Shown here: positions 51,949 to 54,502 of the stretch, piece by piece
How the letters are laid out: each line of letters opens with the position of its first letter
Position numbering within the stretch: position 1 is the stretch's first letter
Assembly: GCF_003545815.1 (NCBI RefSeq)
Contig: NZ_PDUW01000013.1
Location: forward strand, 1-64,000
Reading direction: 5' to 3'
Length of the DNA: 64,000 nt
Source of the DNA: Pusillimonas caeni
GTDB lineage: Bacteria > Pseudomonadota > Gammaproteobacteria > Burkholderiales > Burkholderiaceae_B
Translations under genes and position numbers: made by a program
The notes under the pieces: generated by a model
Told to the model about the DNA's origin: nothing
The model's database searches: none
Seen by the model: the letters and a program-made list of their open reading frames with translations, nothing else

Positions 51949-53316
51949 ATGAGCGGGCAAGACGTGACACAGCACTACGACTACATCGCCATAGGCGGCG
52001 GCAGCGGCGGCATCGCCTCCGCCAACCGCGCAGCGATGCACGGAAGAAAATGCGCGCTGATCGAAGCCAAAGAGCTCGGCGGCACCTGCGTCAACGTGGG
52101 ATGCGTGCCCAAGAAAGTCATGTGGCACGCGGCGCAAATCGCCGAGGCCATTCACCACTATGGGCCGGACTACGGCTTTAACGCCACGGTGAACCGCTTC
52201 GACTGGAACACCCTGGTCGAGAACCGCAGCGCCTACATCGACCGCATCCATGCTTCGTACGACACGGTGCTGGGCAAGAACCAGGTCGACGTGATCCGCG
52301 GCTGGGCCAGCTTCGTCGATGCGCGCACCATCGAAGTCGACGGCAAGCGCTACACCGCCGACCACATCCTGATCGCCACCGGCGGCCGGCCCGTGCGCCC
52401 CGACATTCCCGGCGCGGAACACGGCATCGATTCGGACGGCTTCTTCGCCTTGTCCGAATTGCCCCGGCGCACCGCCGTGGTGGGGGCGGGCTACATCGCG
52501 GTCGAACTGGCGGGCGTGATGAACGCCCTGGGTTCGGAAACCCATCTCTTCGTGCGGCAGCATGCCCCGCTGCGCAATTTCGATCCCCTGATCAGCGAAA
52601 CCCTGGTCGAAGTGATGCAGGCCGAAGGCCCTCTGCTGCACACACACTCCGTACCCAAGGCGGTTTTGAAGAACGCCGACGGCAGCCTGACGCTGCAACT
52701 CGAGAACGGCGAAAGCCACACCGTGGACTGCCTGGTCTGGGCGGTCGGCCGGGAGCCCCATACGGCCCACCTGAACCTGAAGGCGGCGGGCGTACAGGTG
52801 AACCCGCTCGGCTACATCACGGTGGACAAGTACCAGAACACCAATGTGCCCGGCGTCTACGCGGTGGGAGACATCACCGGGCAGGTCGAACTGACGCCGG
52901 TGGCCGTTGCCGCCGGACGCCGCCTGTCCGAGCGGCTGTTCAACGACAAGCCCGACGAACACCTCGATTACAGCAATGTCCCCACGGTGGTGTTCAGCCA
53001 CCCGCCGATAGGCACGGTCGGCCTCAGCGAACCCGAGGCGCGGGCCAAATACGGCGACGATGCGGTGAAGGTGTACCGGTCTTCTTTCACCGCCATGTAC
53101 ACCGCGGTGACGCGGCGCCGCCAGCCCGCGCGCATGAAGCTCGTCTGCGCCGGGCCGGAAGAGAAGATCGTCGGCATACACGGCATCGGCTTCGGCATGG
53201 ACGAAATGCTGCAGGGCTTCGCGGTGGCGCTGAAGATGGGCGCCACCAAGAAGGACTTCGACGACACCGTGGCGATACATCCCACCGCCTCTGAAGAGTT
53301 CGTGACGATGCGGTAG
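51949..53316 (+). CDS. gor: Glutathione-disulfide reductase
   Basis: A 455-residue flavoprotein disulfide reductase. FAD motif [14 protein letters not shown] (about 12-25), redox-active Cys47 and Cys52 in [17 protein letters not shown] motif [14 protein letters not shown] (about 178), and the terminal catalytic HPTASEE are all present. It reduces oxidised glutathione with NADPH in the cytoplasm. It follows the DUF2789 gene closely. Its stop codon is 6 bp before the composite repeat region. Confidence 0.95.
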
Positions 53317-53322
53317 AGCTAA

Positions 53323-53430
53323 ATTGGGTTCTTGAGGGCCGTTGGGGATTGTTGCGATGTTGCTATTGGGTTCTTGAGCGCCGCTGGGGATTGTTGCGAT
53401 GCTGTTATTGGGTTCTTGAGCGCCGCTGAA
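53323..53430. repeat. 42-bp tandem repeat, two full units and a 24-bp partial third
   Basis: Units at 53323-53364, 53365-53406 and 53407-53430 start attgggttcttgag and contain ggggattgttgcgatg. The first two differ at only a few positions, and the third runs into hairpin A. The array begins 6 bp after the gor stop codon. There are no spacers between units, so it is not a CRISPR array. An inverted copy of the unit's start (ctcaagaaccc) lies at 53670-53680. Confidence 0.85.
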
Positions 53431-53510
53431 GGAGCCCCGGGTTTTCCCCGGACGGTCGGGCGGTCCGAGGCAGCGCCCTCCAACGTCCGGGGACAACCCG
53501 GGGCTCCTTC
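53428..53510. repeat. Long hairpin A: 26-bp arms around a 31-bp core
   Basis: The left arm 53428-53453 (gaaggagccccggg...) and right arm 53485-53510 are complementary except for one base. Between them, 53454-53484, is a 31-bp core that starts ggtcgggcggtccg and ends ccctccaac. The flanks gccgctgaa (left) and ttcaacggc (right) extend the inverted repeat. The exact reverse complement of the core recurs in hairpin B. Confidence 0.85.
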
Positions 53511-53515
53511 AACGG

Positions 53516-53569
53516 CTTGCGTCATTTGCCAGACTCGCGTCATTTGCCTACTCGCGTTATTTTCTCAGA
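53516..53569. repeat. Three imperfect copies of a 17-19-bp repeat
   Basis: Copies at 53516-53533, 53534-53550 and 53551-53569 follow the pattern ctcgcgtcatttgccta. They fill the spacer between the two hairpins. Confidence 0.6.
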
Positions 53570-53583
53570 CGTAAGCCGCTGGA

Positions 53584-53658
53584 GGCGGGCATGCCCAGGC
53601 CGGGCGTTGGAGGGCGCTGCCTCGGACCGCCCGACCGCCCGGCCTGGGCATGCCCGCC
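53584..53658. repeat. Long hairpin B: perfect 22-bp arms around the same core, inverted
   Basis: The arms 53584-53605 and 53637-53658 (ggcgggcatgcccaggcc...) are perfect complements. The 31-bp loop 53606-53636 is the exact reverse complement of the core of hairpin A. The arm sequence is unrelated to that of hairpin A. The flanks gccgctgga (53575-53583) and ttcagcggc (53659-53667) match those of hairpin A. A palindromic gcatgc lies in each arm. Confidence 0.85.
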
Positions 53659-53848
53659 TTCAGCGGCGTCTCAAGAACCCAAACGCCAAGTCCCGACCCA
53701 AGAGTCACGTCCGAAAAAACCCGATCAAAGCTGCACTCGCGCATTTGGGTATAACCCGACAACAGACTAAAATCGCTTAATACTCCCTAAATAAATGGCA
53801 TCGCCAGGCTCACTGTGCGTGCCGACCGCATCGCCTGCTTCGAACACC

Positions 53849-54502
53849 ATGACCGAATTAAAACGCCCCACCCTCGAACTGCCGGACTCCCGCAAGAAAG
53901 TGCTGCTGCACTCCTGCTGCGCGCCCTGCTCGGGCGAAGTCATGGAGGCCATGACGGCATCCGGCATCGATTACTCCATCTACTTCTACAACCCCAACAT
54001 CCACCCCGACCGCGAATACGAGATCCGCAAGAACGAGAACATCCGTTTTGCCGAAGAGCATGGCATCGAGTTCATCGATGCCGACTACGACCGCGACAAC
54101 TGGTTCGAGCGCGTCAAGGGCCTCGAGAACGAACCCGAACGCGGGGCCCGCTGCACCGTCTGCTTCGACATGCGCTTCGAGCGCACCGCCCTCTATGCCC
54201 ACGAGCACGGCTTCGATACCATCACCAGCTCGCTGGGCATCTCGCGCTGGAAGGACATGAACCAGATCAACGGCTGCGGCGAACGCGCCGCGGCGCGCTA
54301 CCCCGACCTGGTGTACTGGACCTACAACTGGCGCAAGGGCGGCGGCTCGGCGCGCATGATCGAGATCAGCAAGCGCGAAGAGTTCTACCAGCAAGAGTAC
54401 TGCGGCTGCATCTATTCGCTGCGCGACACCAATCGCCACCGGCGCTCGCAGGGGCGCGAGGCGATCGAGATCGGCGTGAAGTTCTACGGCAAAGACGACT
54501 GA
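53849..54502 (+). CDS. queH: Epoxyqueuosine reductase QueH
   Basis: A 217-residue QueH (DUF208) protein, which reduces epoxyqueuosine to queuosine in tRNA in place of QueG. The Cys-rich N-terminus HSCCAPCSG (Cys23, Cys24, Cys27), CTVCFDMR, and the C-terminal YCGCIYSL bind the iron-sulfur cluster and extra metal. The start at 53849 matches the family; an ATG at 53795 would add 18 unrelated residues. It converges on the outer-membrane lipoprotein gene with a 19-bp overlap. Confidence 0.9.

Follow-up and report, generated by a model that had tools for sequence, protein, structure and literature searches.

Two neighbouring hairpins in the 64 000-nucleotide stretch of the Pusillimonas caeni genome analysed here (the window) have unlike stems, and their loops are one sequence in opposite orientation. 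We asked what kind of element these hairpins belong to and how stems can stay complementary while their sequences differ.

Architecture of the element in the window

The hairpins lie between two genes that we take to be gor (51949–53316) and queH (gene end at 54502), facing each other inside a unit that has inverted TTGGGTTCTTGAG boxes at its ends. The left terminal box TTGGGTTCTTGAG (53408–53420, + strand) adjoins hairpin A and belongs to a tandem array (53323–53428, + strand) in which repeat analysis found 2.5 copies of the 42-bp outer box unit, with further copies of the box at 53324 and 53366. Inverted-repeat and fold analysis placed the arms of hairpin A at 53422–53454 (left) and 53484–53516 (right), both on the + strand; these 33-nt arms are 94% complementary and enclose a conserved 29-nt loop (53455–53483, + strand) with an inner GGGCG/CGCCC stem. 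Hairpin B, identified in the same way, is read on the − strand, with its left arm at 53636–53667, its right arm at 53575–53606 (32 nt each, 97% complementary), and the loop with the same core in opposite orientation at 53607–53635. The inverted right terminal box follows at 53670–53682 (− strand). Between the hairpins are the inner tails and a spacer (53517–53574, no strand assigned). The spacer holds short 17-bp direct repeats, GCGTCATTTGCC(AGACTC), at 53519–53562, which we did not notice in other pairs.

The initial annotation had described two hairpins with different stems around a shared, opposed core of 31 bp, as well as inverted boundary motifs and the 42-bp array. All of these were confirmed; the core is slightly longer, since 33 nt (53453–53485) are the exact reverse complement of 53605–53637, and the 26-bp arms claimed for hairpin A sit inside the 33-nt arms found here. 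The box, with at most one mismatch, matched six times in the window (mean in shuffled sequences 0.06) and the core twice (0.02 expected). The DNA folds of the two hairpins had z scores of −8.6 and −9.7.

A family of intergenic hairpin pairs

Confinement of the core to this locus, which would have refuted the reading of the initial annotation, was not observed. A 23-nt loop core, searched with up to three mismatches, gave 49 copies in the 4.44-Mb genome, 36 of them exact, and the reversed pattern gave none. Of the 49 copies, 36 have a partner no more than 400 bp away, making 18 pairs (spacing 142–296 bp), and the remaining 13 have none within that distance. All 18 pairs are in +/− orientation with the boxes pointing outward, and each combines one T1 and one T2 tail, labels that were given by the nearest of two consensus strings written after the tails had been inspected. 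Five copies received neither label, none of them in a pair; the window pair, judged by eye, fits its own labels poorly.

A box was recognised in 43 copies; its majority form is TTGGGTTCTTAAGCGCC, and nine of these copies carry extra boxes farther out, at distances of 42–44 bp (five boxes), 83–84 bp (three), 24–25 bp (two) and 64 bp (one); one shuffle per flank, used as a control, gave none. According to a simple ORF model the copies are intergenic. We read the family as a non-coding, multicopy, intergenic repeat with a BIME/MITE-like layout.

Stem co-variation within the genome

We aligned the 45 intact copies, leaving out two that were cut by insertion sequences (IS) and two with broken arms. 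The stem is ~31 bp long (31–33 pairs) and the loop 29 nt. Almost all stems are individual: among the 47 copies with both arms, the 26-nt left arm occurs in 46 distinct versions. Nevertheless, 13 of the 45 stems are free of mismatches and 21 have a single one. Of the 1625 cells in the two helices, 97.1% were paired; 312 cells showed two-sided change, two showed one-sided change and ~47 were unpaired, counts that take related copies as independent and so are not probabilities. Two-sided change affected 29 of the 38 pairs. In helix 1 (33 pairs), five pairs were invariant and 28 were altered on both sides. None of 500 shuffles reached any of the five measures, and sliding the partner arm lowered pairing to 36–49%. 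Stem indels were paired as well, with extra or missing bases on both arms together.

These data bear out what the initial annotation proposed, namely repeats whose loop and ends are conserved and whose stems are exchangeable and co-vary. The co-variation is a pattern read from a comparison of standing copies. That nearly every stem is different and yet its arms match suggests that one side has repeatedly been copied from the other.

Orthologous loci in sister species

A covariance model matched all three genomes of the genus that were compared: P. caeni, P. noertemannii DSM 10065 and a Pusillimonas metagenome-assembled genome (MAG). Seven of ten P. noertemannii loci compared shared flanking DNA with the P. 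caeni loci examined. In five orthologous hairpins (150 pairs) we counted 22 double changes from one Watson–Crick pair to another, one other double change and 14 single changes, whereas ~6 doubles and 48 singles would be expected if the two sides changed independently, each site at the 20% rate observed; this count leaves out L085/L118, where the loop is duplicated, and L089/L104, where orthology is not clear.

The initial annotation had suggested selection for structure. A purely selective origin of the co-variation finds no support in the paired indels, the orthologous changes compensated in place and the small number of one-sided changes, which argue at least in part for arm-to-arm copying.

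The apical loop reads GTTTGTGG in 11 of 11 pattern-found P. noertemannii copies and GTCCGAGG or close variants in P. caeni, and the difference also holds at orthologous loci. Since all 11 copies carry the change, those loci included, the apical loop has changed together genome-wide.

Presence of the element also varies. At three loci (L072/L112, L085/L118 and L061/L120) the hairpin found in P. caeni is absent from P. noertemannii, with exact ends that are unreadable. At L089/L104, P. caeni has two hairpins and P. noertemannii one, with a T2-like tail and in the other orientation, an arrangement that the reading preferred below does not account for. By eye, the gor–queH site of the MAG has no such hairpin, and that of P. 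noertemannii has a different box-ended sequence at a contig end. A different repeat, AACGGGTACGGGCCGGCAGC, occurs twice in the gor–queH gap of the MAG, upstream of queH (L146). Near-identical contig-end hairpins were seen in a Pusillimonas MAG (L097) and an Alcaligenaceae MAG (L125), perhaps one misbinned contig.

Several contig ends coincide with the hairpin repeats and with copies of IS elements, a circumstance that could suggest an assembly artefact or chance palindromes. This explanation is contradicted by the copies at loci common to the separately assembled sister species and by the reversed-core, shuffled and slid controls, and we regard its probability as negligible.

Strand bias of the mismatches

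The 48 mismatches in helix 1 comprise 33 A.C or C.A, 11 C.T or T.C, one C.C and three G.T or T.G. Read on the complementary strand, 45 of the 48 contain G. G-containing mismatches are the more stable kinds. In P. noertemannii, all 20 mismatches in ten hairpins belonged to the same G-containing class (L118 was left out because its loop is duplicated). Stems of the 20 long-form copies described below showed the same direction weakly (seven versus two, three neutral; P=0.18). Some mismatches are common by descent. In the reading of the favoured strand the 33 A.C cells become wobble pairs (G.U), which leaves fewer one-sided changes on that strand than on its complement. We see in the bias a sign either that the strand with the box on its 3′ side is selected for its fold or that mutation itself is strand-biased.

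One form of such selection would act on a structured RNA involved in 3′-end protection, protein binding or transcription end, with compensatory mutation under selection for the RNA fold alone producing the co-variation. Besides the G-containing mismatches on one strand, the RNA fold of the whole window unit (z −10.9) and the gene neighbourhood speak for it. At 23 sites with genes on both sides, the simple ORF model gave 12 convergent, nine co-directional, one divergent and one unclear arrangement (eight further sites were at contig ends), and the favoured strand was the sense strand for all four unpaired short hairpins between co-directional genes, one of these genes being a weak call. However, stem indels are paired, the two one-sided cells stand against 312 two-sided ones, and 33 G.U cells are few even for the favoured strand. 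Moreover, the pairs place one hairpin on each strand, Rfam gave no match in the window at gathering score, and no terminator-like site was found in 53200–53900. We therefore rate RNA-fold selection on its own as a distinctly weaker candidate, albeit the strongest of the rivals. In four other stretches, two from this genome and two from relatives, Rfam gave sub-threshold matches only. Intrinsic terminators, considered separately as an identity for the hairpins, were discarded on the same scan of 53200–53900; by eye, some neighbouring genes have apparent terminators of their own outside the element.

Selection might instead act on the fold of single-stranded DNA alone, as at the sites of single-strand transposases or integron integrases, with no copying between arms. 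Strand-biased mismatches and a conserved loop and foot next to a free stem are what this explanation has in its favour. A precedent is TnpA-REP, for which strand-specific binding and, for some REPs, loss of cleavage upon stem mismatch are reported (PMC8266576). The 22 double versus 14 single changes between two species and the paired indels, however, would need very fast second mutations, and the Y1 transposase (PF01797) was absent from all three genus genomes (5 of 14 control genomes were positive). We consider this explanation unlikely.

A long form and look-alikes beyond the genus

A long form of the hairpin combines the foot and box of the short form with a 28–38-bp stem and a structured loop of 146–160 nt. 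Matches numbered 13 in P. caeni, ten in P. noertemannii and four in the MAG; from these 27 matches, 22 loci were parsed and 20 distinct stretches kept. The 20 copies have 20 different arms, with 12 mismatches in 638 pairs. We infer that the short form arose by deletion of the long-form loop.

A relative, G103, carries at unrelated sites one unit of 411 bp and one of 417 bp, each with inverted TTGGGTTCTTTAG-like boxes and two facing hairpins. Their hairpin halves are near-identical and their middles differ; one stem position is set apart by a compensated double change, and both loops within each unit are in the same state. By eye we saw no target-site duplication at the two units, and no clean empty site was found. 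Two near-identical units at unrelated sites imply mobility, in line with the suggestion of the initial annotation that these could be small mobile elements.

Other Alcaligenaceae contain look-alikes, in which the same box accompanies long hairpins. G125 has three copies whose outer stems are different and perfect, and G312, G376 and G632 have similar nested hairpins. Homology of these look-alikes to the window family would rest on box, layout and loop fragments rather than on a tested alignment. A scan of named genomes for the exact core found nothing; a degenerate core gave 11 stretches. The box pattern had 14 matches over 61 genomes against nine in the reversed control, a count that proves nothing, and its spacing was off by one for P. 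caeni (three own matches). The evidence rests on the sequence after the matches: outside P. caeni, 7 of 11 lead into a long hairpin, judged by eye and by fold, and four do not clearly do so. An order-wide pattern matched 16 of 399 genomes (12 control matches). Eleven of its loci were folded, of which one was from P. caeni, six (in G312, G376 and G632) were alike and four were not; G494 has the same matched letters, as read from sequence alone. A wide family search, with 13 candidates scored per genome, was positive in at least 6 of 268 genomes, the G096 and G126 matches being weak (E about 1e-5).

Several further observations were made in these searches. In G312 (L246, L253 and L257) a palindrome of the type TTACTTTTCTTGGCGAGACAAGAAAAGTGAC lies beside the long hairpin, and part of the L246 stretch has a 93.5% match on Variovorax paradoxus CP063167. 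In G112 (L184) there are three head-to-tail hairpin units, the third stem differing from the first by paired changes (by eye). Plasmid or phage cargo was considered and rejected: a long form (L061, 1670–1910), compared at E 1e-5 with 72 556 plasmid records and 50 697 phage records, matched none of them, the short core pattern matched no viral contig, and the sole viral match to the long-form pattern had a fold that was not alike.

Insertion sequences at the repeat

Among the stretches examined, seven contig-end junctions share one IS end, and in all seven it is followed by TTCTT(A/T/G)A(A/G)CG, which is the box. The contig C4 (L094) ends in a reading frame starting MATIKLIGIDLGKRCFHLHG (by eye), which we take to be IS110-like. 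The TTCTTRA box seems to be a recurrent insertion site of an IS110/IS1111-like element; the contig ends concerned are the C4 end (L094), L064, L066, L075, L083, L084, L200 and L207. At three contig ends (L063, 165; L088, 2332; L091, about 120) an IS end lies in the loop, at positions that agree to a few bases. These element ends are presumably IS3-like, and the three junctions probably represent two hairpins. REPs are known IS targets (PMC1525189), and IS1111/IS110 elements choose their sites by means of a guide RNA (PMC11187229).

How the stems may be maintained

Indels that come in pairs and the scarcity of one-sided changes favour arm-to-arm copying, and the strand bias favours selection. 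We think that both act. Strand-biased mismatches would not be expected from a purely symmetric DNA process alone, and loops that stay fixed next to drifting stems still call for selection or conversion. Our preferred reading, to which we assign a probability of slightly over one half, is that of a BIME/MITE-like repeat without a tag, in which DNA copying between the arms, together with selection on one folded strand, keeps the stems complementary.

Under this reading, complementarity would be maintained mainly in the DNA itself: during replication, a template switch at the hairpin would copy one arm onto the other. For template switching, a role in both the origin and the upkeep of stems has been published (PMC8794818). 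The selected fold would be that of the strand with the box on its 3′ side, as single-stranded DNA or RNA. Units would have been spread, mostly in the past of the genus, by an enzyme reading box and loop; the Y1 transposase search of the three genus genomes yielded no mobilising enzyme. None of the three proposed steps (copying, strand selection and spread) would require a host function.

More tentatively, and with less confidence than in the preferred reading, these elements may be a class of their own, mobile hairpin pairs bounded by boxes and present across Alcaligenaceae and perhaps wider. Recognition would then use box, loop and a fixed stem length and leave the stem sequence free; arms would be re-copied perfect, loops would shift together genome-wide, and the enzyme would act on one folded strand.

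Template switching may resolve the open question of how perfect long DNA stems can persist as their sequence changes. With dozens of stems in one genome, several of which have sister-species orthologs, the rate of paired change and the tract length become measurable.

Comparison with known systems

MITEs are elements with inverted termini. The window unit and both G103 units likewise end in inverted boxes, and the G103 unit of 411–417 bp occurs at two unrelated sites. The units described here differ in having large internal hairpins with conserved loops; inspection of the two G103 units by eye showed no target-site duplication.

Integron attC sites are defined by RYYYAAC/GTTRRRY boxes and an integron integrase. 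They resemble the repeat in that structure is kept as stem sequence varies and one strand is favoured. The attC box is given as RYYYAAC (PMC8632094). The Pusillimonas repeat differs in that it has a conserved loop and occurs as single pairs between ordinary genes, with no cassette array.

In the literature on repeats of Alcaligenaceae, Betaproteobacteria and Pusillimonas, the sole candidate was the untagged repeat BRE of Bordetella (Hot et al. 2011, PMC3110155), a result that is no proof of novelty as most subscription journals were outside the search. BRE is ~90 bp long, GC-rich, usually intergenic, possibly mobile and from the same bacterial family. Its units are of 75–91 bp, sometimes in tandem, whereas a long variable stem is not part of the description that we compared (PMC3110155). 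BRE could be related to the Pusillimonas repeat, a comparison made by description only.

The initial annotation had named REP/BIME elements as a parallel. REPs and BIMEs are intergenic palindromes, often heterodimers in opposite orientation, and targets of IS elements (PMC3733652, PMC2817692, PMC1525189). The BIME-like layout stands, with 18 of 18 close pairs in opposite orientation and the copies intergenic in the simple ORF model. Membership of REP proper fails on tag, stem length and transposase: at the stem ends of the 49 copies, on either strand, GTAG was near three and CGTC near six, and the stems have 31–33 pairs, whereas tagged REP families have stems of 5–13 bp (PMC3733652). The repeat differs further in its 29-nt or ~150-nt loop, its terminal box TTGGGTTCTTAA and the lack of a conserved tag. 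A RAYT-mobilised REP/BIME family in the strict sense would agree with the intergenic, palindromic, opposed pairs and with the IS ends at box and loop, but is contradicted by the missing PF01797 as well as by tags and stems, and we hold it to be very improbable. The family has a BIME-like layout and MITE-like ends and is not a REP; it has the look of a REP-like system that lacks the known REP transposase, and one IS element recurs at its repeated box.
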